A DNA stretch of 36,854 nt from a virus. Positions 11,944 through 36,854 of the stretch are shown piece after piece. A model generated the notes under the pieces. The model was not told the origin of the DNA, searched no databases, and was given only the letters and a program-made list of their open reading frames with translations. The DNA lies in the IMG/VR virus record IMGVR_UViG_3300025419_000009, positions 1-36,854 of that record, one strand, 5' to 3'. How positions within the stretch are numbered: the first letter of the stretch is position 1; every line of letters starts with the position of its first letter. The translations under genes and the position numbers were made by a program.

Positions 11944-12353
11944 GCCTGCCTCACAATCCGGGGATCGACGCCTGTTTCCGCCACCGTCAGCGCCAGCCCT
12001 TGCTCGGCGAAGTATTCCACCTGCCGCCGCGTCTCGTCGTCCCTGACCCCTGATCCCTGATCCCTGATCCCTGTTTCTTCCATTTCCCGCCTGCTGATCA
12101 ACTCCCCCAGCGCGTCCGCCAGGTCTTCCGACACCTTGCGCACATTCTCATTCGCCGCTCGCTGAGAACAGTTCTTTACGATGTAGCGCATCTCCTCCAG
12201 CCGTTGCGTCGTCACCATTTCCCGCCTGCTAATCAACTCCCCCAGCGCGTCCGCCAGGTCTTCCGACACCTTGCGCACATTCTCATTCGCCGCTCGCTGA
12301 GAACAGTTCTTTACGATGTAGCGCATCTCCTCCAGCCGTTGCGTCGTCACCAT
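11940..12353 (-). CDS. Helical protein with duplicated 45-residue module, 137 aa
   Basis: Starts at 12353 (TGATG overlap with the previous gene). Two identical 45-residue modules (VTTQRLEEMRYIVKNCSQRA, then ANENVRKVSEDLADALGELI) lie head to tail, each beginning with Met; a third Met then leads into a repeat-coded linker (EETGIRDQGSGVRDDE) and an unrelated tail ending DPRIVRQA. The modules are amphipathic helices. The preceding 73-residue gene carries a diverged third copy (RKSWADVAKGLGELIELRRR). Internal ATGs could give shorter forms. Function unknown. Confidence 0.6.
   Translation of the reverse strand: MVTTQRLEEMRYIVKNCSQRAANENVRKVSEDLADALGELISRREMVTTQRLEEMRYIVKNCSQRAANENVRKVSEDLADALGELISRREMEETGIRDQGSGVRDDETRRQVEYFAEQGLALTVAETGVDPRIVRQA
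12041..12074 (-). repeat. G-rich repeat R3, inside a coding sequence
   Basis: Minus strand reads GGGATCA three times then GGGGTCAGGG: five G-tracts. It is translated in frame as GIRDQGSGVRD in the 137-residue protein. Confidence 0.9.
12084..12353 (-). repeat. 135-bp in-frame tandem duplication
   Basis: Units 12219-12353 and 12084-12218 differ at one base (12231 a, 12096 g), which is synonymous (ATT/ATC). The near identity points to a recent duplication or ongoing homogenisation. Confidence 0.95.
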
Positions 12354-15009: not shown

Positions 15010-17039
15010 TGCGGGGCGATCCCATAGTCAACGGTGCCGGTTGCGTTCGTCCAGTGCATTTTCCCATCGGGGCCAGGCGCTTTGTATGTTGCTCCCGCCG
15101 GTGGCGCAGCCGGCTGCGCGATCGCGTCCTTCTGCACAAATTCCTTGGCTCCCAGCCCTTCCAGAATCTTCGTACTCTCGGGCGAGAGCATCTGAAAGTC
15201 TCGCGGCCTGCCCATGCCGGTTTCGTACTGGTGGCTCAGAGCGTCATAGCGCCCATTCATCAGCGTCAGCGCCTCCTGGATGCCGGCCTTGATCTGGTCG
15301 GGCGTCTGCGCCGTGCTCATGGTTTCCTTCCAGCCCTGAATCTCCTGGTCGGTTCCGGCGGTGCGCTTGAAGATAGCGCTTAGTTCGTCGGCCACGGCGT
15401 TGACATCTTTTTTGTACTGCCCCGGCGCCGTGGCTCCAAACCATGGCCCAACGGTATTTTTGAAGGCATTCGCTGCTTGGAAATTCGTGTTTCCCAGCGC
15501 CGCGCCTGTTTTGTTGAGCTGGTCGAGATGCTGAATTGCAGTGTTCAGGCTGCGGATGTTTGTGGCTGCCTCGCCGCTGGTGAAGTCCTGCAACAGCTTG
15601 TGGCGCGTGCCGTACTGCTTCTCGTCGTAACTGGGATCGATCTGCTGCGCCAATCCAATCGCCGTCTCGCGGTCAACCTGGCCGCTCTTGGCAAATTTGC
15701 GCTGCGGAAAGGTCGCAGGATCGGTTCGGTAATCGAGCAAGCCTTTCACCGCCGCCTGAATCGGAGCGGGATATTGTTCCAGTCCTGCGGTTCCAGTCGC
15801 TCCTGGCGTCGGCGTAGCAGTTTGGGCTCGTTTTGCTTCCGCCTCGGCACGCGCTTTTTCCGCTTCCGCATAATTTTTGGCTGCTTCCGCTGGCGCAGCC
15901 TCGGCACGCGCTGTTGCCTCGGCACGCGCTTTTCCCGCTTCCGCATAATTTTTGGCTGCTTCCGCTGGCGCAGCCTTGGCCCGCGCTGTTGCCTCCGCGG
16001 TCTGCGCCACTTTCAGGCCGGTTTCCACCTGGTCTGTCTTGTACTTCAGCGCCGCATTTCCGGCCGCCGTGTTGTAATCGTCGATCTCCCCCTGGGTGAT
16101 CGGGCCGGATGCTTTGTGTTCGAGATATTGCCCGGTGGTGTTGTCGAAGGTATGGAAAATCGCTCCATCCGGCAGCACGGTGGCCCGGTAGCCGGGCGTC
16201 GTCTTGTAAACCTTGAATCCGGCCACCTGGCCATTCTCGTAGTTGGGAACAAACTCCAGCGCGTGATTTTTTACCAAGTCTTCCATCAGTTGCGGATTTT
16301 TAGCCATCAGGTGGCTGATGTCCCCGACGTGTGCGGTAGTTCCCAGCAGAATTCCGCCATTCTCCTTGAGCCGGTCTTCCTGCTTGTCGGCGAACTGCTC
16401 ATCCTCCTGGCTGGCCTTCACCTTCAACCGCGCTGCGGTGTAGGCGTGCTCCGCCATCTGCATCCGCAGCAATTGGTTGTTCGCATTGTCCAGCGTCTGC
16501 TGCCGCGCCTGTTCGGTCATCTCTTTCTGCTGCTTTTGCTGCTGTTGCTGATCCTGCTGGCCGGCCTCCACACCGGCCAGCGCCGCCTTCCCCATGTTGC
16601 CCGCGCCCTTGCCAGCCGCCAGCCCCGCCGCCGCCCCGTGGATAGCTTCTCCGGCAATGCGCAGCCACTGCTCTCCATGGGTCAAGCTCACCTGCTTGAC
16701 ATAGCTGTTTCCGTCCTGGTCCTTGCCGATCTCCGGCCGCGTCTTCCCCGTCAGCGCGTCTGCGATCGAGTCCATCACGCCCAGAATGCCGCCGCGCTTC
16801 TGCGGCGTAATCACCGTCGGTTGCGCGGGCGCGGGGGCTGCGGGCGGCGCGCCAGCGGCCGCTCCTGGCGTCGCTGGGGTTGCGGCGGCCTTCTGCGCGC
16901 TTGCCGTCGGCTGCGCGGCGCCCTGCGCGGCTTGGCTCCAGTCTCCTCCGCCTGCTGCGGGCGCCGGCTGCTGGCTCGCTATCTGCGCGCTCTTGTCTCC
17001 GCTGCCCGTCTGGTCCGGTATTGCTTGTGCCTCAGCCAT
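15006..17039 (-). CDS. Internal virion protein, 677 aa
   Basis: Starts at 17039 after AAGAGGAAAATC; an upstream extension to 17222 overlaps another gene and is rejected. The N-terminal 60 residues are A/P/Q-rich and disordered; an amphipathic part (DSIADALTGKTRPEIG) and a Q-rich coiled coil (QQDQQQQQKQQKEMTEQARQQ) follow. Residues about 351-403 hold a 25-residue tandem repeat (APAEAAKNYAEA.KARAEA). The C-terminal third is globular (TNIRSLNTAIQHLDQLNK). Coupled to the 812-residue protein. Best read as an ejected core protein. Confidence 0.65.
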   Translation of the reverse strand: MAEAQAIPDQTGSGDKSAQIASQQPAPAAGGGDWSQAAQGAAQPTASAQKAAATPATPGAAAGAPPAAPAPAQPTVITPQKRGGILGVMDSIADALTGKTRPEIGKDQDGNSYVKQVSLTHGEQWLRIAGEAIHGAAAGLAAGKGAGNMGKAALAGVEAGQQDQQQQQKQQKEMTEQARQQTLDNANNQLLRMQMAEHAYTAARLKVKASQEDEQFADKQEDRLKENGGILLGTTAHVGDISHLMAKNPQLMEDLVKNHALEFVPNYENGQVAGFKVYKTTPGYRATVLPDGAIFHTFDNTTGQYLEHKASGPITQGEIDDYNTAAGNAALKYKTDQVETGLKVAQTAEATARAKAAPAEAAKNYAEAGKARAEATARAEAAPAEAAKNYAEAEKARAEAEAKRAQTATPTPGATGTAGLEQYPAPIQAAVKGLLDYRTDPATFPQRKFAKSGQVDRETAIGLAQQIDPSYDEKQYGTRHKLLQDFTSGEAATNIRSLNTAIQHLDQLNKTGAALGNTNFQAANAFKNTVGPWFGATAPGQYKKDVNAVADELSAIFKRTAGTDQEIQGWKETMSTAQTPDQIKAGIQEALTLMNGRYDALSHQYETGMGRPRDFQMLSPESTKILEGLGAKEFVQKDAIAQPAAPPAGATYKAPGPDGKMHWTNATGTVDYGIAPQ
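15835..15985 (-). repeat. 75-bp tandem repeat in the 677-residue gene
   Basis: Two copies spaced exactly 75 bp (TAATTTTTGG cores at 15871 and 15946) code 25-residue alanine/glutamate/lysine-rich helix repeats. The frame is kept. The A+T-rich core stands out from the neighbouring DNA. Confidence 0.8.
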
Positions 17040-26947: not shown

Positions 26948-28120
26948 TTAGGTTGTCTGCGGCACCGCGTTGGCGATGCGCATACGGCTGGTCGCGTCTG
27001 GAGGCAAGCCCACGCCGAAGACGCAATTGTAGCCCGTGCCGGCCATGATCAGGCCGTTCGGGTCGTAGGCGGTCCGTTCCTTGTACTCGCCCGCCCATAG
27101 GTTCATGTTCTCCCAGCGCGGATCGATCTTGGTGTGCCGCTTGTTCGGGAAGTTCACAAACACGATCGCATCCGCTCCGGCAAGGTAAGTGCTGATCGCC
27201 GTCAGCCCGCTGCCTTCCCAGTTGGTGGTCTGCGTCTGGTTGGTGCTCTTCCTCCAGTGGCAGCCCATCAACTCCAGCGTCTTGACGGGCGTTTCCCCGT
27301 CCTGCCCGTCCAGCGGCTCCAGCTTCAACTGCCCGGCGTCGGTGTGCTTCCAGATATCGACAACCGAGTTGTTCGAGTTGTCGAGCATCATGTCGCCCAC
27401 AAAGAAGTCGTGGATGCTGCCGTTGTAATAGCCGTTCGCCATCGGTCGCACGGTCGCGCCGCCCAGGCTGGCCGGCATCTGCTCGATCATGTTCTTCGAG
27501 AAGGCGTACGGCGAGTTGGTCGAGTCCTGGTTCGATGTCCTGCCGTCCCAGGTGCGCAGGTAATCCATCATGTACATCACCAGGTCGTCGATGCTGATGC
27601 CGAGCTGGTAGGCCATCACGCGCCGGTTCTCTTCCAGATCGTTCGAGATCGAGGTCAGGAACGCCAGATCGGAGATGTTGTTGTAGTTGGCCAGTTGCGC
27701 CACCACAATGTCCTTGAAGTTCACGCTGATCTGCTCGGGCGTCCCGATGGTGCCTTCCGTCTGTTGCTGCGTATCCGCGCCTAGCGGAATCGCCATGAAG
27801 TTGCGGAAGGTCTGGCCGCTCTTCTCCGGCAGGTCCATATGGGTCACCATCAGCAGCTTGTTCAGGTTCATATAAAGCCACTTCATGAAGACCCGGTTGT
27901 AGTGGATCGTAAGCCGCGCCTGCGGCATGTTGGCGCTGGTCTGCGCCGCCGGGCTGGGACCGTCGCAAACTGTTGCCGCTCCAGCCGCCATCGCCGCGGC
28001 ATTCATGGCGCTGTGCAGGGTTACCGCGATAGCGCCGCCGATCGCGGCGATGACTTGGATGATGGTCCAAAGCACACAAGCCACGCCACGCGAGATTTTG
28101 CACTGCATCGTCTCGGTCAT
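26948..28120 (-). CDS. Major capsid protein, N4gp56-like, 390 aa
   Basis: Start at 28120 after GGGAGCGGAGT. From about residue 65 the sequence follows the N4gp56 capsid pattern: MPQARLTIHYNRVFMKWLYM, then PEKSGQTFRNFMAIPLGADT, TEGTIGTPEQISVNFKDIVV and LTSISNDLEENRRVMAYQLG. C-terminal GLPPDATSRMRIANAV completes the HK97-like domain. Coat proteins of this family form the icosahedral shell. Odd: residues 8-50 (GVACVLWTIIQVIAAIGGAI...) are strongly hydrophobic, unlike a usual capsid start. An internal ATG at 28006 would omit most of it but has no visible ribosome site. The scaffold-like gene lies just upstream. Confidence 0.8.
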   Translation of the reverse strand: MTETMQCKISRGVACVLWTIIQVIAAIGGAIAVTLHSAMNAAAMAAGAATVCDGPSPAAQTSANMPQARLTIHYNRVFMKWLYMNLNKLLMVTHMDLPEKSGQTFRNFMAIPLGADTQQQTEGTIGTPEQISVNFKDIVVAQLANYNNISDLAFLTSISNDLEENRRVMAYQLGISIDDLVMYMMDYLRTWDGRTSNQDSTNSPYAFSKNMIEQMPASLGGATVRPMANGYYNGSIHDFFVGDMMLDNSNNSVVDIWKHTDAGQLKLEPLDGQDGETPVKTLELMGCHWRKSTNQTQTTNWEGSGLTAISTYLAGADAIVFVNFPNKRHTKIDPRWENMNLWAGEYKERTAYDPNGLIMAGTGYNCVFGVGLPPDATSRMRIANAVPQTT

Positions 28121-28149
28121 ACTCCGCTCCCTGGTCCGCGGCTCAGTTT

Positions 28150-28971
28150 CTAAGCTGTCCGCTGCTGAGGGAAGTGGAACTCGCACGCCGCCGCGTAGTC
28201 TGGATCGTTCGCCTCGATCAGGCGCCGCATCTTCGCTTCCGGCATGGTGCGGATCTCCTCTTCCGTGTACTTCACAGTCCGTGTCTGCGCGGTCTGCGGG
28301 GCGCTGAAGCTGCTGCTTCGCGCGCCGGTGGCGAACCGCGTGCCTCTTGGCCTCTCCACGTGCTGCACCTGGCTCTCGCCAGGAAGTACAGGGGGCGTTA
28401 TGGTTAGGGTTTGCGGCTCCTCGAAGAGTTCGCCGCGCTGCTGTAGCTCCTGAAAAGTCTCGGTCAGCATCTGTTTGGTAATCAGGCCAACCTTGCCGCC
28501 TACTTTGCGGCCCGCGCTCTCGCACAGCATCCGCTTGTTGCCGGCGTGGGGATAAAACTCCGGGTGCTCGGCCTGCCACGCCATGCAAAGGTTCGCAAAG
28601 ATCTGGATCGCCTGCTGGCGCGGGTCCACGCCCGTCTGGTCCACCACCAGGCGAATCACGGCCTCGCCGCTCTTGGCCGGATTGCTCAGGTCGAGCGTCG
28701 CCTGCATCCGCTCATCGGCGCTGAGGCTTGTCCGGGGCGCGGCCGGGGGTGGCGTCCCCGGCGCCGCTGGTTGTATCGGCGCTGCCGCGCGGCGGACAAG
28801 AGCAATCTGCGCGTTGGCGTTCTGGATGGCCAGTTTCTGCAACACTTCCTCCATGCTCGCCCCATAGGTGGCGTTCAGCGCGCTGCCGTCCTCCAGGTCG
28901 ATAATCCAGCAGACAGTTTCCGGCTCAACCGGCTTTCCGTTCGGCCTCGTCTCGCTCCAATAGGCTTTCAT
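28150..28971 (-). CDS. Scaffold-like protein, 273 aa
   Basis: MKAYWSETRPNGKPVEPETV... starts at 28971, ATGA-coupled to the 150-residue gene, with GAGAAGGGAACCGGGGA upstream. Proline/alanine-rich linker at about 70-90, then helical AVIRLVVDQTGVDPRQQAIQ, and an E-rich C-terminal part (EEEIRTMPEAKMRRLIEAND). Directly precedes the major capsid gene; length and charged helices fit a scaffolding or assembly protein. No protease motif seen. Confidence 0.5.
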   Translation of the reverse strand: MKAYWSETRPNGKPVEPETVCWIIDLEDGSALNATYGASMEEVLQKLAIQNANAQIALVRRAAAPIQPAAPGTPPPAAPRTSLSADERMQATLDLSNPAKSGEAVIRLVVDQTGVDPRQQAIQIFANLCMAWQAEHPEFYPHAGNKRMLCESAGRKVGGKVGLITKQMLTETFQELQQRGELFEEPQTLTITPPVLPGESQVQHVERPRGTRFATGARSSSFSAPQTAQTRTVKYTEEEIRTMPEAKMRRLIEANDPDYAAACEFHFPQQRTA

Positions 28972-29420
28972 TCCCCGGTTCCCTTCTCTTTCCGCTGCTC
29001 CAACTCCAGTTCGGCCAGCTCCGCGTCCACCATCAACTCCAGTTCGCCCTTCGCCCGGCGGTACATCTTGGCGTACCCAAACGCCTCGGCGATCGCGTCC
29101 CGATCCTTTAGCGGGTCTCCCTGAGCCAGGATTATAGCCGCCTTCTCATGGATTCTGCACGTTTTTTCCAGCAGCCTCGCCAAAATCGGCCATCCCGGCA
29201 GTATCCGCATCTCCCGCAGGTCCATCCGCTCGGCGGTGGTCAGCTCCCTGTCCGGGTCTTCCACGGGCGCCCGGCGCAGCGTTTCCTGAGCCGCCCCCGC
29301 CTCTTCCATCCGGCCATCTTTCAGCGCCGCCAACTCCGGGTTCAACGGGACGCCGGCCAGGTACTTCTCCAGCGGCGTTAGTTCTGACCCCTGATCTCTG
29401 ACCCCTGATCCCTGGTTCAT
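28968..29420 (-). CDS. Hypothetical protein, 150 aa, repeat-coded N-terminus
   Basis: Starts at 29420, ATGA-coupled to portal. Residues 2-13 (NQGSGVRDQGSE) are coded by repeat R12. The rest is helical and charged: LTTAERMDLREMRILPGWPI, KTCRIHEKAAIILAQG, and an E-rich tail (ELELMVDAELAELELEQRKE). Coupled on both sides to structural genes, so probably an assembly protein. If the repeat is a late insertion, an ancestral start may have been lost. Confidence 0.6.
   Translation of the reverse strand: MNQGSGVRDQGSELTPLEKYLAGVPLNPELAALKDGRMEEAGAAQETLRRAPVEDPDRELTTAERMDLREMRILPGWPILARLLEKTCRIHEKAAIILAQGDPLKDRDAIAEAFGYAKMYRRAKGELELMVDAELAELELEQRKEKGTGE
29384..29415 (-). repeat. G-rich repeat R12, coding
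   Basis: Minus strand CAGGGATCAGGGGTCAGAGA then TCAGGGGTCAG. It begins two codons after the ATG of the 150-residue gene and is read as QGSGVRDQGS. Confidence 0.85.
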
Positions 29421-31615
29421 TCCCCCACTCCCGGCACGCCATTTTGCAGCTCGCCCATGTCTGTGTTGCGCTCCAGCCGCGCCTCGGCCAGTTCCAGGGG
29501 CACGTCGCCGCTCACGTGGTCCATAGCCTTGTCCACCAGCGTATGCTGGATGTCCTGTTTGCCCTGCTCCTGAATCTGCTGGAGCTTGTTCTGACCCTTC
29601 GCCTGCTCCACGGCCTGCGCCATCTTGGCCTTGATCGCCTCGGGATTCATCTGCGCCATGTTCTGTTTCTGCTCGTCCGTCATGGGCACAAAGATGTCCT
29701 GCCAGTTTTGCAGTTCGCTCATCCGCTGGAAGGCGTTCTCGATAGCCTGGAAGTTGATCGTCTGCCCGATCTCGTGCTGCCACTGCATCAACTGCGGCTG
29801 CTGCACAATCTGCAGGAAGAACGGTATCAACTGCATAATCGCGGCCTTGGCCGCCAGCTTCTGCCCGCACAGCACCTTGATCTCGAACTCCGCGTCGATG
29901 AACGCCTCGGCGGTAATCTCCTCCAGGATGCTCGCTCCCAGCCGCGAGCTGAGAATCTCGCGGATCTCCTGAATAGGCATGTCCTCCAGAATCCGCTCCC
30001 GCTGGAAAGCTCTCCACCGCTTGATGGTGTACTCCAGGTGCGCCACGGGGTCGGCGATGTTGTCGTCGGCCTTCGATCCCGCCCGGTTCACCCCCGCCGC
30101 CGTGCGCATGGCGCTCGATCCCGGCGTGTTCACGTTGCCCTGCATTGAGATGGAGTCGGCGCCCACCGTGTTCTCGCCGCCGTCCTTGCCTAGTTGGTAA
30201 ATCTTCCAGGCCTCGGGCGGAATCTGCGGCATTTGCATGAACTGGAACGCCTTGCGCACGTCTCCGTCGCGCGTCCGCACTCCCCACAGCGTTCCCAGGC
30301 CCATCACCACGTTCTGGGTAGGCGCGTTGCCGTCCTGGCTATCGTAGAGAATCGGCGCGTTCAGCGGGAAGGCGATCATCTTCAGTACTTCGTTCAGCAC
30401 GCCCTGGTCCATGCGCTGGTCCCCGGCGTTCAGCCTGCCCGTGCCCATCCCATAACCGCTGTTGTCGATGTTCCACCAGGTCGCGCTGTACCCCAGCGCC
30501 TGGTCGCCCATGGTGTGTTCCTGGTTCCGGATCACCTTCCGTCGGCTCTCGTAGCAGAGAACCTCGATCACCACCTTGTCCGTCCAATAAGCCAGCTTCA
30601 TCAGCGGCTTCTCAAACGGGTTGGCGCTCTCGTTGCGCTGCTCCCCGGCCGCGTGCAGCACGGTGCTGCTCTCCTGGTTCATCGACTGCGCCACCTGGCT
30701 CCCCACCGCCGCGTCGCCTAGCGGATTTTCCAAGAAGTACGTCTTCAGGTCTTCGTCGCTGGGGATGTCCTTGTAGCAGTCCAGTTCGCGCAGGCTCTTC
30801 AAATCCTCGAAGGCCACATAGTCGATGTCGATTCGCGCCCCGCCGGTCAAGTCGGGCCGGTTCGGTGTCCGCCACTTCGGGCTGTAGAGCGTGGTGCCCA
30901 GCCGCCGGTACTCGAAGTAGGGCCAGCTCTCCTCGACCGTCTCCTCGCGCACCTTGAAGGTATCGCTCTCCCAGGTATCCACCTCTTTCTTGCCGCCCAG
31001 CGGCATGTCGATCGAGACCGGAGGCGTCTCGCGCACGCGACTCTTCTTCTTGACCTTCTTCGTCTCCCAGATCGGAATCCAGATCGCCGTGCCTTGCAGC
31101 ACTTGGCACTCGATTCCCAGGCTCATGTTGTACTCGAAGTCCGCCCGGTCGTCGAGTTCCTCGAAGATCGCGCTCCATGCCTCCAGAATCCGCTCCGAGT
31201 TGGGATCGCCGGCCAGCTTGCCGCGCGGTTCGAGGGCGGTGGGGCTGGTGTCGGCAAAGATGCCCCGCCGCACCTGGTTGCTCATGGTGTTGCGGTTCTT
31301 GGCCACGTTGAAGCGGCTGATGCGCGCCGGCCGGCTGGTCTGCATCCGCCAGTCGCGGTCGTAGTTCGGGCTCTGGTAAAGGAAATCGACGTACTGCCAC
31401 TCCGCCAGCCAACTGTTCGTGTCCAGCCATGCCATAGCCCGCTGGTAGTCTTCCCACACAATGGTGGCCGCCGCGTCGTCGTCGAAGAGGATACCCTCGG
31501 CGGAACTCGCGGGCAGCGTCACCTGCTTGTCCTGGATCAACGGCGTCAGCTCGTTGCCCAGCGGCATCCCATCTCCGCCCACCTTCGCCGCTATTTCCTC
31601 GCGATCAGCCAACAC
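29417..31615 (-). CDS. Portal protein, 732 aa
   Basis: GTG start at 31615, overlapping the zinc-ribbon gene by 11 nt. Order TerL-portal-scaffold-capsid and size (about 730 aa, as in podovirus portals) support the call. N-terminal wing: WEDYQRAMAWLDTNSWLAEW; then ARISRFNVAKNRNTMSNQVR and a body with many W/Y/D motifs; C-terminal third is a Q/E-rich coiled coil (AQAVEQAKGQNKLQQIQEQG) that fits a barrel or crown. The portal is the 12-subunit channel for DNA packaging and ejection and a platform for the terminase. Confidence 0.8.
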   Translation of the reverse strand: MLADREEIAAKVGGDGMPLGNELTPLIQDKQVTLPASSAEGILFDDDAAATIVWEDYQRAMAWLDTNSWLAEWQYVDFLYQSPNYDRDWRMQTSRPARISRFNVAKNRNTMSNQVRRGIFADTSPTALEPRGKLAGDPNSERILEAWSAIFEELDDRADFEYNMSLGIECQVLQGTAIWIPIWETKKVKKKSRVRETPPVSIDMPLGGKKEVDTWESDTFKVREETVEESWPYFEYRRLGTTLYSPKWRTPNRPDLTGGARIDIDYVAFEDLKSLRELDCYKDIPSDEDLKTYFLENPLGDAAVGSQVAQSMNQESSTVLHAAGEQRNESANPFEKPLMKLAYWTDKVVIEVLCYESRRKVIRNQEHTMGDQALGYSATWWNIDNSGYGMGTGRLNAGDQRMDQGVLNEVLKMIAFPLNAPILYDSQDGNAPTQNVVMGLGTLWGVRTRDGDVRKAFQFMQMPQIPPEAWKIYQLGKDGGENTVGADSISMQGNVNTPGSSAMRTAAGVNRAGSKADDNIADPVAHLEYTIKRWRAFQRERILEDMPIQEIREILSSRLGASILEEITAEAFIDAEFEIKVLCGQKLAAKAAIMQLIPFFLQIVQQPQLMQWQHEIGQTINFQAIENAFQRMSELQNWQDIFVPMTDEQKQNMAQMNPEAIKAKMAQAVEQAKGQNKLQQIQEQGKQDIQHTLVDKAMDHVSGDVPLELAEARLERNTDMGELQNGVPGVGE

Positions 31616-31808
31616 TCACCCCCGGTATGACGGACTCAGGCGCGTTTACAACTTCTTCCATGATGATCTTAACGATTTTCCATTGTCTAAGGCAGTTTTC
31701 ACACTCAGGGTTCTGGCATTGGTAAAAATCGTTTTCTGTGAGAGGCATCAAATGGTTGCATTTTCCACAAAAAACAGAATGTAAAACGATTTTGTTTCCC
31801 TCAGCCAT
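31605..31808 (-). CDS. A+T-rich small zinc-ribbon protein, 67 aa
   Basis: MAEGNKIVLHSVFCGKCNHL... overlaps the TerL end by 8 nt and the portal start by 11 nt. Two cysteine pairs (CGKC and CQNPECENC) should bind zinc, a Com-like or ribbon pattern. Its DNA is visibly poorer in G+C than the flanking TerL and portal genes (TGTAAAACGATTTTG, ATTTTCCATTG), so codon use differs and it may be a recent gain wedged between two core genes. Function unknown. Confidence 0.7.
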   Translation of the reverse strand: MAEGNKIVLHSVFCGKCNHLMPLTENDFYQCQNPECENCLRQWKIVKIIMEEVVNAPESVIPGVSVG

Positions 31809-33537
31809 CCAGCCCTCCCGGCAGCGGCGGCATACTCCATGTCGCTGTCTTTTGCATGGCGGCCAGGTGCGCCGTCATCTTCTGCTGCGCCTGCTCGTCC
31901 ACTGCCGGCATCCCCTGCTGGCTAAGGAAGCTCTGCACCAGCGCGTCTTCCCTGCGCCGCCGCTGCCAGGCTATCTCCTCTTCCTGCATGTTGGCCCGCA
32001 TCTGGCTGATGGGAACCAAAGCAGCGAAGCGCGAGATGCACTCCACGATTCCATTCTCCTCCACTAGCCCAAAATGCACAAACTGCTTCTGGCACTCAGC
32101 CGCTTTGCTCATTCCGGTCGAGAACAGCACCCGGCCTACCTTCATCAGCGGCTCAAGCTGCTTGATCGCTCCGGTCCTCCGGTTGTCGTCCTCCTCGAAC
32201 TCCAGCCATTGAATCCGCACGCTGCGGTTCCGCTTTGCCGCCTCGTTGCGGATGTGCGCCGCCAGATACTCGCAGCCGGGCACGTCGATAATCATCACCC
32301 CGTCCGCGTCGTTCTCCTTGGCCGCCGCCACAATTCTCTCAGCTTCGCTGGAAGGCGTGTAGGCGCTCTGCCAGCACTCCTTGACGTACACCTTCCCATC
32401 CACCACCGTAGCCGCGGCGCCCTCGCTGAACTTGGCCATCCCCGGCTTTCCGCCGTACCTCGGCCTCCAGCAGATGAATGTCTCTGCATCGTTGCGCCTC
32501 GGCAGCCGCTCCTCTTCGATCGCGCAGCTCGCGTACAGCTTCTCCGGGAAGGTCGGCACATTGCCGCCCTGAGGGTCGTTCTGCTGCTGGCTCATGAAAC
32601 TTTCGTAGTTGTCGAGATATTTTTCGCGGAGAATTTTATAACGCAACTGCGGAAACTCCGGCCAATAAAAGATCAGGTCATCTTCTGCGGGGAACTCGCC
32701 GGGCAGGAACGGGCAGCCGTCCTTGCGCGCGATGGAACTCCGGATCAGCACGCCCCATGCCTCTGGGTTTTCTTTGGCTCTCTCGATGCATTTGGAGTAG
32801 AAGTCGAAAGGATGGTATCGCGTCCCGCCGATCCGGATGTAGCCCATACCCTCCGGGCCGGACCGCAGCAAGTTCTCATTCTGGGCGCACACGTTGATTA
32901 CCCGGTTGCGCACTTCCGGGCTGGCATCGATTCCGCTGTTTTTTGTGTCTTCCACATCGTCGGGGTCGATGTGCGAAGGATGCCAGCCAGACTGGGTAGA
33001 TTCGGGAGAGCTGATGGCTAGCGTTGTATCTAGGTCGCCAGCGCCCACCAGTCGGCGGTTGGGCAGGTTCCAGGCCCAGCGTTGCGAATCGACCGAGGAA
33101 TACGCCGGGTCTTTTTCCGTCACCGACTCGAAAAACAGCTTTTGGAAGACGGTCGGCGATGCGCCTTTAGGCTTGTAGAAGTACTTCGCCGTATGCTTGC
33201 CGATCGCCGTGGCCAGCGGTTGCGTGGCGCTCTCGCAAAGGAACGTCACTTCCTCCGGGAAGGCGCAAAGCCACTGTACGCGGTCCACGCGCTTCAAGCT
33301 GGTTTTGAAGGTGTGCCGGGGGTCCAGGTGCAGCAGGTTCTTCTTGCAGGGTTGGGCGAACATGGGCAGGGTGGGAACCTTGGGACCGTAGAGATCGACG
33401 GCGGCCTGATGAACGCGGGGAACAAAGTCCGGGTAGCCCAGCATCTCGGCGGCGAAAAACATATCCTTTAAAAAGCGATGCCGCAAGTCCTCGCGGTATG
33501 CGGCATCGCTTTCGATCTTGTCGGTGTCGAGAATCAC
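31801..33537 (-). CDS. Terminase large subunit, 578 aa
   Basis: GTG start at 33537 with GGAG eight bases before it. ATPase part: a Walker-A-like LDPRHTFKTSLKR with K79 and T80 (the loop differs from GxxxxGKT, as in several TerL groups), WLCAFPEEVTFLCES, and HIDPDDVEDTKNS with D191/D193/D194 as Walker-B-like acids. Nuclease part: VVDGKVYVKECWQ and DGVMIIDVPGCEYLAAHI, with acids that can hold metal. TerL powers packaging and cuts the concatemer. It starts the head module; no small subunit is identified. Confidence 0.75.
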   Translation of the reverse strand: MILDTDKIESDAAYREDLRHRFLKDMFFAAEMLGYPDFVPRVHQAAVDLYGPKVPTLPMFAQPCKKNLLHLDPRHTFKTSLKRVDRVQWLCAFPEEVTFLCESATQPLATAIGKHTAKYFYKPKGASPTVFQKLFFESVTEKDPAYSSVDSQRWAWNLPNRRLVGAGDLDTTLAISSPESTQSGWHPSHIDPDDVEDTKNSGIDASPEVRNRVINVCAQNENLLRSGPEGMGYIRIGGTRYHPFDFYSKCIERAKENPEAWGVLIRSSIARKDGCPFLPGEFPAEDDLIFYWPEFPQLRYKILREKYLDNYESFMSQQQNDPQGGNVPTFPEKLYASCAIEEERLPRRNDAETFICWRPRYGGKPGMAKFSEGAAATVVDGKVYVKECWQSAYTPSSEAERIVAAAKENDADGVMIIDVPGCEYLAAHIRNEAAKRNRSVRIQWLEFEEDDNRRTGAIKQLEPLMKVGRVLFSTGMSKAAECQKQFVHFGLVEENGIVECISRFAALVPISQMRANMQEEEIAWQRRRREDALVQSFLSQQGMPAVDEQAQQKMTAHLAAMQKTATWSMPPLPGGLDG

Positions 33538-34592: not shown

Positions 34593-34621
34593 TCTATGCT
34601 ACCTTTCCGCTGGTTTGTCAA
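34593..34621 (-). promoter_or_regulatory. Possible promoter of the structural operon
   Basis: TTGACA (34621-34616) with a 17-nt spacer to CATAGA (34598-34593), 36 nt before the start at 34557. The -35 lies in the end of the upstream coding region. The -10 match is weak. Confidence 0.35.
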
Positions 34622-35135
34622 GCAGCTTCTTGAATCCTTGGATTTTGGCGTCTATTTCGTCATACCCGATGCGACCAAGCTCGTCCATCATTGCCAGGTC
34701 AGGATTGCCATCTTCACCTGAGAGGCAATGAGCGTCCGCGATCCGGTCGCGCTCCTCCTCCAAGAGGGCCACGGCTCCCTTGAGCGCCCGCTGAAGGTCG
34801 CGCCGGTTTGAGATCGAAGTATCTTTTTGCACCGGCTCACTGTGGCGGATGTCTCCCCGCGAAGCCCGCCAGCGCCGGTACTCCTCGCGTTCGGCTTCCG
34901 TCGAAGGGTGCAGGCACTTTGGGCATCGGCTGCGGCGCCGTTGCAAAATTCTGATCTGGTCGAGATCGTCCTTGCACTTCTCGCCGCAGGTTGCCGTCTG
35001 CCGGCGCGCCCGGCTGGGCTCGATCTCCGCCCTGCAAACGGTGCAATACAGGGGGGGAATCTGCGAGTTCTTGTTGGGTTCGGCGGGTTCGGCGGCTTCC
35101 GCTTCGCGGTCTAAAACTGCTGCATGGTCAGACAT
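34599..35135 (-). CDS. Zinc-finger protein, 178 aa
   Basis: Starts at 35135 after TGAGGCGATTGA, inside the end of the RusA gene. Two cysteine clusters: YCTVCRAEIEPSRARRQTAT with CGEKC, and RSRCPKCLHPST; these could form a treble-clef or HNH-like zinc fold, but the HNH histidines are not evident. The C-terminal half is helical (DLQRALKGAVALLEEERDRI). Such proteins sit beside replication or recombination genes in many phages. Binding partner unknown. Confidence 0.6.
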   Translation of the reverse strand: MSDHAAVLDREAEAAEPAEPNKNSQIPPLYCTVCRAEIEPSRARRQTATCGEKCKDDLDQIRILQRRRSRCPKCLHPSTEAEREEYRRWRASRGDIRHSEPVQKDTSISNRRDLQRALKGAVALLEEERDRIADAHCLSGEDGNPDLAMMDELGRIGYDEIDAKIQGFKKLLDKPAER

Positions 35136-35557
35136 TCAATCGCCTCAATCGTCATGATGGTTTTGGGGCCGATCTCACGGCATGGGAGTGAATCGTAAAT
35201 CTCCACAATCAGCCTCTTCACCCAGGCATCCGAGAGTTCTTTCCCTTTGGCGTCGCGGAACATGCCGCGCTTCGCGGCACAGTCCAGGATGAGCTTGTTG
35301 TAGTTGTCGGCGTCGCCGCGTTGGGCCTTCCCTGGGAAGTAGCACAGGGTTACTTGAAAGATTCCGCTGGCGCTCACTGCGTAGAGGTCGCGGGCAAAGA
35401 TCGGAAAGTCGCGCATGAACGCCTTGGCCGCCGCGCTCTTGGGGTGAACGCCGGCGGCCGGATGCTCGGTGAGATGGTTCACGCTGGGGGGCAGCATCGG
35501 CATCTCGAAGCGAATGATGGACGGACCGTTCAAGCCGCTATCCCCCATCTGCGCCAT
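35111..35557 (-). CDS. rusA: RusA-like Holliday junction resolvase, 148 aa
   Basis: Start chosen at the ATG at 35557 (GGAG seven bases upstream); a longer frame to 35641 overlaps the upstream gene fully. RusA pattern: FEMPMLPPSVNHL at the N-terminus, beta strand FQVTLCYFPG, then RGDADNYNKLILDCAAKRGM with catalytic-type D82, D84 and D92, and LSDAWVKRLIVEIYD with D110. RusA enzymes are dimers that cut four-way DNA junctions during replication and packaging. Fits the early region next to the initiator candidate. Confidence 0.8.
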   Translation of the reverse strand: MAQMGDSGLNGPSIIRFEMPMLPPSVNHLTEHPAAGVHPKSAAAKAFMRDFPIFARDLYAVSASGIFQVTLCYFPGKAQRGDADNYNKLILDCAAKRGMFRDAKGKELSDAWVKRLIVEIYDSLPCREIGPKTIMTIEAIECLTMQQF

Positions 35558-35715
35558 CTGCGCTCCATTTTGGCATTTTCTTTTTGCTGTTTGCATTCCA
35601 GACAAAGATTCTCTTTGGTTGTGATATGCGATAAGCCGCACTCGAAGCAGAGTCGCGCGAGACGTCGGAATTCCGCCTCGGTGATCTGGCCGGTATTTAG
35701 AGTTTTTGTTTCCAT
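35530..35715 (-). CDS. Small double-CxxC zinc protein, 61 aa
   Basis: METKTLNTGQITEAEFRRLA... starts at 35715 with AGAGG upstream and a TATAAT -10 box. CFECG and CLECK pairs form a four-cysteine zinc knuckle; the tail is basic (KMERRWRRWG). Overlaps the RusA start, so co-translated. Its first codons mirror those of the divergent RHH gene (both METK). A regulator or nucleic-acid binder is plausible. Confidence 0.6.
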   Translation of the reverse strand: METKTLNTGQITEAEFRRLARLCFECGLSHITTKENLCLECKQQKENAKMERRWRRWGIAA

Positions 35716-35743: not shown

Positions 35744-35980
35744 ATGGAGACAAAAAGTAAGAGCAGATTACGAAAAAAATCGACGGCCGCGGCCGATGTC
35801 TACGCTGCCTCAAAATGGTCGCCGGTTCACAAGCGCATCGAAATCCGGTTTCCATCAGCCGAAGAGCATCGCCTGATTTTTCAAGCTGCCGAACGCTCCG
35901 GCTTGTCGATGAATGGCTGGCTGGTGCGTGTTAGTAAGGCGGCCGCTGAGCGCGAGCTGGGAATGGAATCAGGAACCTAG
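35744..35980 (+). CDS. Ribbon-helix-helix regulator, 78 aa, the only plus-strand gene
   Basis: METKSKSRLRKKSTAAADVY... begins directly after the operator O3. Basic N-terminal arm (about 1-25); then strand HKRIEIRFP, helix SAEEHRLIFQAAERSG, and LSMNGWLVRVSKAAAEREL as the second helix: the Arc/CopG-type RHH layout. RHH dimers bind palindromes, so this protein is the natural candidate to bind O3 and the similar O1 and O2. Its stop shares CTAG with the stop of the convergent winged-helix gene. Leaderless transcription would link its synthesis tightly to its own promoter. Confidence 0.75.
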   Translation: METKSKSRLRKKSTAAADVYAASKWSPVHKRIEIRFPSAEEHRLIFQAAERSGLSMNGWLVRVSKAAAERELGMESGT

Positions 35981-36327
35981 ATCGGCTCTCCGCCGACGGC
36001 TTGCAGGTTCTGCATCTCGTAGAGATTGGGAAGTGGCGTGCTGCCTCCCTCGGGGCTTTTGCGCGTCCGCTTGCGTATTTTCACGACTCCCTTAGATTCC
36101 AGCTCTGCCAACCCGCACTGGATGGTTTTATCGGAGACGTTCACGATGCGCGCCAGGGTTTTGATGCTGATATTCTCACAGCCTCCAAAATCAACGTTTG
36201 CGTAGTATTTCAGCGCCGTTAGGGCAACCGTAGCCTTCCAGGTCGGATTGAATCGTGCGAAAAATACCTTTGGGATCATCAGGAACGGGTAGGTTTGCCG
36301 GTCTCTGGATCGAATTTTGTTTGACAT
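35977..36327 (-). CDS. Winged-helix protein, replication-initiator candidate, 116 aa
   Basis: Start at 36327 after GGAGAGAATA. Basic start (SNKIRSRDRQTYPFLMIPKV), then helical FNPTWKATVALTALKYYANV and a helix-turn-helix with wing (ISIKTLARIVNVSDKTIQCG, then LAELESKGVVKIRKRTRK, about 53-90). This matches the helix-turn-helix-36 / RepA-DnaD-like N-terminal domain common in phage replication proteins, but there is no second domain. It sits next to the iteron-like region, so origin binding is plausible. A purely transcriptional role is the alternative. Confidence 0.65.
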   Translation of the reverse strand: MSNKIRSRDRQTYPFLMIPKVFFARFNPTWKATVALTALKYYANVDFGGCENISIKTLARIVNVSDKTIQCGLAELESKGVVKIRKRTRKSPEGGSTPLPNLYEMQNLQAVGGEPI

Positions 36328-36401
36328 TATTCTCTCCGCGCAGTCCATCTGAGCAGGGTTGGCTTCAAAGCGCAAGCCAGAGGTCTCCAAATGTACATGT
36401 A

Positions 36402-36434
36402 TCTGTGGAAATCCTGTGGAAATCTTGTGGAAAA
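36402..36434 (+). repeat. Three 11-bp iterons
   Basis: TCTGTGGAAAT, CCTGTGGAAAT and CTTGTGGAAAA lie end to end. On the other strand they read TTTCCACA, near to DnaA-box style (TTATCCACA). Typical size and spacing of replication iterons. Confidence 0.6.
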
Positions 36435-36490: not shown

Positions 36491-36530
36491 GGTCCCTATT
36501 AGGGGGGAGGGGTGGTCCCCAATAGGGACC
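36491..36530. repeat. Inverted repeat GGTCCCTATT / AATAGGGACC
   Basis: 10-bp perfect arms (36491-36500 and 36521-36530) around a purine-rich loop that itself holds a second GGTGGTCCCC. Possible origin hairpin or regulator site. Confidence 0.65.
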
Positions 36531-36698
36531 ATAAAAGCAATAGAGGTAAATAGTAGTTTCTAGTTTCTTTGCGACCGTAGTAGCCGTAGTCGGTTTTTCC
36601 ACACACCATAGCCGGCCATTTCTTAAGGTAAATTCTGTAAACCATCACATAGTTTACATACCAGAGAGAACAAAAGCAACAACAAAAACAAAAGCAGG

Positions 36699-36854
36699 AT
36701 CGGACGACAAAGCCTCCTCTGATAAAAACAACCAATTTGACAAATAAGTGAAATTTATTTATCGTAAACGTTCATGCTTCACACTCTGCATAAAATAAAT
36801 TTCACTTATTTGTCAAATTGGTTGTTTTTATCAGAGGAGGCTTTGTCGTCCGAT
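36699..36854. repeat. 62-bp perfect inverted repeat at the window end
   Basis: Arms 36699-36760 and 36793-36854 are exact reverse complements with a 32-nt loop. The right arm ends on the last base. Each arm carries TTGACA pointing to the loop. It may be a hairpin telomere, a replication fold-back, or an assembly or amplification artefact. Confidence 0.9.

Follow-up and report, generated by a model that had tools for sequence, protein, structure and literature searches.

From our sequence comparisons, we conclude that the window, i.e. the whole stretch of 36,854 nucleotides analysed here (IMG/VR virus record IMGVR_UViG_3300025419_000009, classed as linear), is probably the TerL-side part of a linear tailed-phage genome of about 40-44 kb, both ends of which would be loop-bearing hairpins with joined strands. 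The core of this conclusion was observed: the position of the ends is conserved, both ends of relatives show self-paired turn-arounds, and contigs stop at the apex. From the assembled contigs we infer covalent closure of the strands in the cell. In the following, the T end denotes the TerL-side end of a genome and the F end its far end.

Terminal inverted repeat and gene order of the window

The last bases of the window form an inverted repeat with arms of 62 bp, which are 100% complementary and have 32 nt between them (Table 1). An earlier reading, made from the sequence alone, had described a perfect 62-bp inverted repeat closing the contig on its last base, and this was borne out by the repeat search. 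As a DNA strand, the terminal repeat folded with −73.4 kcal/mol, compared with −14.3 ± 2.5 kcal/mol in shuffles (z −23). Should this be a hairpin end, its duplex would stop at the apex near position 36777, and positions 36777-36854 would represent the opposite strand of the same end. Several relatives of the window have GTCAA at 25-34 nt from the tip. The iterons that the same reading had placed beside the repeat were found as three copies of TGTGGAAA, starting at 36404, 36415 and 36426, about 270 bp inward of the hairpin; we take these to resemble DnaA boxes. Sites resembling DnaA boxes averaged 1.7 in the first 1500 nt of the T end of 17 genomes, compared with 0.02 in 423 other windows, and this enrichment suggests that some members of the group have an origin close to the T end.

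From the hairpin end, the genes of the window run leftward, in the order initiator-like protein, RusA-like nuclease, zinc-ribbon-like protein, TerL, portal and head protein. The search returned no confirmed relatives of the tip-adjacent HTH protein. A small divergent ORF (35744-35980, + strand) had a weak match, below the cut-off, to the TacA1 antitoxin family, and similar ORFs occur in some relatives. A second record, IMGVR_UViG_3300009629_000062, encodes a TerL that is 100% identical to that of the window and therefore comes from the same phage or a very close one; this contig begins 348 nt ahead of TerL and is without the tip. In three relatives (L018, 4414-6834; L017, 3-1952; L043, 4229-6670), TerL is interrupted by an in-frame segment of some 240 aa, a possible intein, within an open frame of 650-863 aa.

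The left end of the window consists of coding-type 66-bp units that are unrelated to the right-end repeat, and the contig breaks off within them. About 24 of these units (22 aa each) are arranged in tandem at positions 1-1700, presumably as part of a gene for a leucine-rich-repeat protein, of which such units are typical. The sequence-only reading had counted the left-end repeat in favour of an artefact. The left end is indeed a repeat, but one of coding-type units at which the assembly stopped, and it provides no argument for an artefact. The window falls several kb short of the other end of the genome on this side, so that the far end is missing from it. Other repeats include twelve scattered, seemingly intergenic copies of a CCCTGACCCCTGATCCCTG-like repeat between 4457 and 29429, and exact or near-exact tandem duplications at 12080-12349 (135 bp, 99%) and 15841-15990 (75 bp, 96%).

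Table 1. Positions of features in the window, and arm and loop lengths of the tips that turn back in the window and its relatives
Feature	Position	Strand	Evidence or remark	Arm	Loop
Terminal hairpin, inner arm (62 bp)	36699..36760	+	Repeat search and anchored tip test		
32-nt loop; apex near 36777, likely the physical duplex end	36761..36792	+	Repeat search, folding, loop comparison		
Outer arm, probably the same end read back on the other strand after the turn	36793..36854	+	Repeat search; relatives alike		
TTGTCAA box on inner arm (TTGACAA on +)	36737..36743	-	Read from sequence		
T/G-rich tract (A-rich on +) directly inside the hairpin; same at TerL-side tips of relatives	36664..36698	-	Read from sequence		
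Two GGTCCC..GGGACC-type elements; counterpart in relatives, paired GGTGCTAATAGCACC elements	36491..36530	.	Sequence and motif scan		
Three TGTGGAAA iterons, 11-bp spacing	36404..36433	.	Motif scan		
Winged-helix type protein, DnaD/replication-initiation-like	35977..36390	-	HTH_36 below cut-off; phrog_186 E 1.5e-6		
RusA-like Holliday junction resolvase; candidate telomere-junction resolvase (putative function)	35111..35641	-	phrog_34 E 1.2e-8		
Conserved zinc-ribbon-like protein, adjoins nuclease gene; cysteine pattern from alignment	34599..35135	-	15/17 genomes		
Terminase large subunit (TerL); anchor for the search for relatives	31801..33537	-	phrog_38 E 3.1e-20		
Portal protein	29417..31615	-	28.3% to Tunturi_3 portal protein		
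Major head protein	26948..28588	-	34.5% to Tunturi_3 major head protein		
G063, T end				98 bp	30 nt
Window, T end				62 bp	32 nt
G059, T end				54 bp, 2 mismatches	37 nt
G057, T end				40 bp	33 nt
G008, T end				28 bp	15 nt
G006, T end				28 bp, 1 mismatch	39 nt
G064, T end				24 bp	36 nt
G059, F end				48 bp	4 nt
L296, F end				23 bp, perfect	14 nt

Conserved ends and turned tips in relatives

Relatives were gathered from viral contigs via TerL, which was confirmed in 25/25 further records. In every one of the 44 contigs that measure 37 kb or more (37.3-44.7 kb; 29 tabulated from the first listings and 15 from later records), the distance between the TerL start and one contig end is 1.9-10.2 kb, and the gene is directed away from that end. 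Random breakage of circular genomes would place TerL in this way in about a quarter of the contigs, and the result thus speaks for fixed ends. At the opposite side, the distance between the F end and the start of the gene for a clamp-loader-like AAA protein is 20-720 nt in 33 of the 34 loci used; only in G018 is it longer, at 2.3 kb. The scan comprised 68 loci, and in the other 34 the gene lies away from the contig end and the record names, by name comparison, are absent from the TerL listings. Since the positions of TerL and of the clamp-loader gene are fixed, we regard these contigs as linear genomes that are nearly complete and have two fixed ends, T and F. No T-F joint was found in any of these 44 contigs, and none of them crosses the T end. 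A comparison of the two ends over their outermost 400 nt gave 16 nt as the longest shared stretch (2/20 records), with none of at least 12 nt in the other 18. The tip region of the window had no match among 50,697 phage records. A DNA pattern derived from its arm was discarded, as it matched only eight unrelated contigs.

An anchored test, scoring inverted repeats that begin on the outermost base of a contig, was applied to 50 T tips and 41 F tips selected by us. Such repeats were detected in 8/91 tips (7/50 T and 1/41 F); the F tip of L296 was found later and lies outside these counts. Altogether, nine tips turn back (seven T and two F); they are distributed over eight contigs and several metagenomes, and every repeat starts on the outermost base (Table 1). 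None of 48 control contig ends had an anchored inverted repeat; their best candidate spanned 13 bp and contained a mismatch. The limit score of 16 was likewise not attained at any of 3763 internal start points. The controls included the far ends of G063, G064, G067 and G068, which end inside the genome. In G059, the T tip and the F tip each turn back on their own sequence and the arms of the two differ, which means that neither end is a junction with the other. Other TerL-side contig ends lie mostly inside genes and are without a close terminal repeat beyond those named here. Two observations count against hairpin ends, namely that 83/91 tips do not turn back and that the arms contain mismatches in G006 (one) and G059 (two).

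Related contigs that do not turn stop at the apex. The 14-nt loop of L296 (44,290 bp) sits exactly where four related contigs end. A 16-base pattern taken from four short-stopping F tips and scanned against all viral contigs returned those four, three unrelated contigs and L296 as a new one. The C-rich block CCCC-N-CCCC occurs 37-54 nt from the tip in 13/41 F tips and within 90 nt in 15/41, compared with 0/820 control windows; in G059 its distance to the apex is about 43 nt (counted by hand on the sequence). GTCAA was found in 7/50 T tips and 11/41 F tips, and in 134/2730 control windows. These boxes (GTCAA, GCCTAACA-like) are located near the tips at a steady distance, yet in a minority of tips, and this was also counted against hairpin ends.

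If the ends are hairpins, the terminal repeat would be one telomere read round, consisting of the inner arm, the loop and the complementary strand of the same end. Short-read contigs would usually stop at the apex, and some would continue round it for 23-98 nt, yielding an inverted repeat that ends at the contig end. The closed hairpins of Kaumoebavirus are described as inferred from the same assembly signature (PMC7909422). The sequence-only reading had considered three options, namely a hairpin with covalent closure, an end from protein-primed or rolling replication, and a fold-back; the end position conserved among independent assemblies and the turned relatives favour the hairpin, and random fold-back finds no support.

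The main rival is an open linear end, the 3' end of which folded back and was copied during library preparation or in the cell (snap-back). This would produce perfect arms of any length at true ends only, and most tips do end without turning. We nevertheless consider it unlikely, since the T loops measure 30-39 nt in six of seven cases while their sequences are unrelated, and since the arms of G059 have mismatches at distances of 29 and 50 bp to the loop (by hand count), which would be unexpected in freshly copied arms. Open phage genomes with cos or repeat ends would also yield T-F joints, and among contigs of at least 37 kb none crosses the T end. An open terminal palindrome as in parvoviruses, with the outer arm as the physical DNA end that folds back to prime replication, would agree with arms beginning exactly at the contig end in 9/9 turned tips and with the small internal hairpins present in some T loops. 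Arms that range from 23 to 98 bp without a constant relation to the box, and the stop of related contigs at the apex, not one arm further out, make it quite improbable. The same range of arm lengths led us to set aside the assembler k-mer as an explanation of the repeat length.

A circular or circularly permuted genome, in which assemblies would break at the repeat as a recombination or telRL-like site, has a precedent in the virion DNA of N15, which has such a site internally, and GTCAA and AT-rich sequence are common to the T and F tips of some genomes. Each outer arm of G059, however, complements its own end and not the other, which refutes circularity for this genome, and T-F joints are absent as described above. 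Assemblies with longer k-mers are not broken by repeats of 23-28 bp, and the shortest repeats found here are of this length. We therefore hold a circular genome to be very improbable. A random assembly or amplification fold-back of one contig would agree with a repeat as long as its distance to the contig end. It is nonetheless scarcely credible, as the same position and behaviour recur in eight contigs from several metagenomes; the fold-back artefact, which the sequence-only reading had regarded as the sober choice, finds no support in the control contig ends (0/48).

Candidate enzymes for making and resolving the ends

The route to hairpin ends described for phages is the action of a protelomerase on a palindromic site (PMC10612081, PMC12042878). 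Protelomerase PF16684 was detected in 0/10 and 0/25 records, and profiles of the TelN and VP882 protelomerases, run against 3919 ORFs from 17 records (four of them incomplete), yielded E values above 1 only, while the two controls scored. Tyrosine integrase PF00589 (0/25 records), serine recombinase PF00239 (0/18) and the DDE transposase domain rve PF00665 (0/18) were not detected either; Mu-like ends were set aside, as no DDE transposase was found. The telRL site of N15 has 26/28 symmetric pairs and no spacer, whereas the spacers found here measure 15-39 nt at T ends and 4 and 14 nt at F ends.

A nuclease of the Holliday junction resolvase type is encoded near the T end in 45/50 records and belongs to one of three unrelated families (RusA, VRR-like or phrog_190-like); for 18 of the 50 records, this count covers about 5 kb at the T end. 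No such gene was found in five records, namely G006, the contig of which is incomplete, and four others in which the examined part comprised about 5 kb. The VRR-like label is weak and derives mainly from PHROG matches (E 1.2e-4 and 0.0054). VRR_NUC entries ranked at the top for the AlphaFold model of this family (mean pLDDT 76), with E values of 0.1 and above, and a PDB sequence search returned nothing for it. Holliday junction resolvases are common in ordinary phages, which was counted against the proposed explanation. The occupation of one slot by three unrelated nuclease families suggests that the activity is needed, be it for the resolution of telomere-junction cruciforms or for debranching before packaging, as we infer.

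Replication starting from inside would run round each hairpin and produce inverted T-T and F-F junctions. These junctions, most likely extruded as cruciforms, would be recut into hairpins by the Holliday junction resolvase of the phage (RusA in the window) together with ligation. We tentatively propose that the window belongs to a widespread lineage of tailed phages or phage-plasmids with covalently closed, loop-bearing telomeres that lacks a protelomerase, resolves its cruciforms in a poxvirus-like manner with interchangeable Holliday junction resolvases and probably infects Acidobacteriota in soil.

ParA is encoded in 7/17 genomes, with Pfam or PHROG support for G018 and G029, and RepA_C was detected in G006 and G039 (two proteins tested). 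The presence of ParA and RepA in some relatives suggests that life as a linear plasmid is possible. An SbcC/RecF-like ATPase, found in 12/17 genomes (e.g. L045, 4074-5675), fits a plasmid-like state and is possibly linked to protection of the hairpins from SbcCD-type nucleases. TelN of N15 is reported to block the hairpin-cutting Mre11-Rad50 (PMC12624138).

Host, significance and comparison with known systems

The nearest cultured phage for the head and portal proteins (34.5% and 28.3%) is Tunturi_3, a podovirus of Tunturiibacter (Acidobacteriota), and because of these matches Acidobacteriota are the likely hosts. Unlike the phages described here, Tunturi_3 has a 97.6-kb genome, and a search of the accessible text of its paper (PMC11924767) returned nothing on hairpins, telomeres or linear ends. 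Podoviruses of the ICP2/CW02 type were distant matches for TerL (22.8-26.4% identity). TerL profiles had no match in bacterial genome contigs, nor did the portal protein in plasmids.

A literature search by titles and abstract openings, with preprints and most subscription journals outside its scope, yielded no paper describing such phages, which leaves their absence unproven. Within this scope, a poxvirus-like telomere strategy has not been described for bacterial viruses. Hairpin telomeres of phages are presented in PMC12042878 as having so far been found via the protelomerase gene. If our conclusions are true, a hairpin-ended lineage without a recognisable protelomerase would escape such a gene-based search. 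The lineage would then represent a second way of making telomeres in bacterial viruses and a simple bacterial counterpart to the ends of pox- and asfarviruses. Its existence would further account for the dozens of IMG/VR contigs of 37-45 kb that are classed as linear fragments and are probably complete.

The phages with N15-type telomeres (N15, PY54, phiKO2, VP882 and phiHAP-1) are likewise tailed and have a linear plasmid form with hairpin ends, as the present group would have. They encode a ParA-type partition gene and a RepA-type initiator, which are also predicted in some members of the present group. In contrast to the N15 type, no protelomerase was found here, the T ends have loops of 15-39 nt in place of a zero-spacer palindrome, the terminase gene lies a few kb from the tip rather than in the middle of the molecule, and many virion and tip genes are unrelated.

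Poxviruses differ from the present group in having a long terminal inverted repeat common to both ends, and the phages described here are bacterial tailed phages with a terminase. For the flip and flop loop isomers of poxviruses, the group offers no two turned contigs from one species to compare; no such pair of loops was observed, which was counted against hairpin ends. As in poxviruses, asfarviruses and Kaumoebavirus, an incompletely paired hairpin would join both strands, as seen here in the assembled contigs of seven T and two F tips. A Holliday junction resolvase is described as virus-encoded in the poxvirus type, and its counterpart here is the nuclease predicted in 45/50 records.
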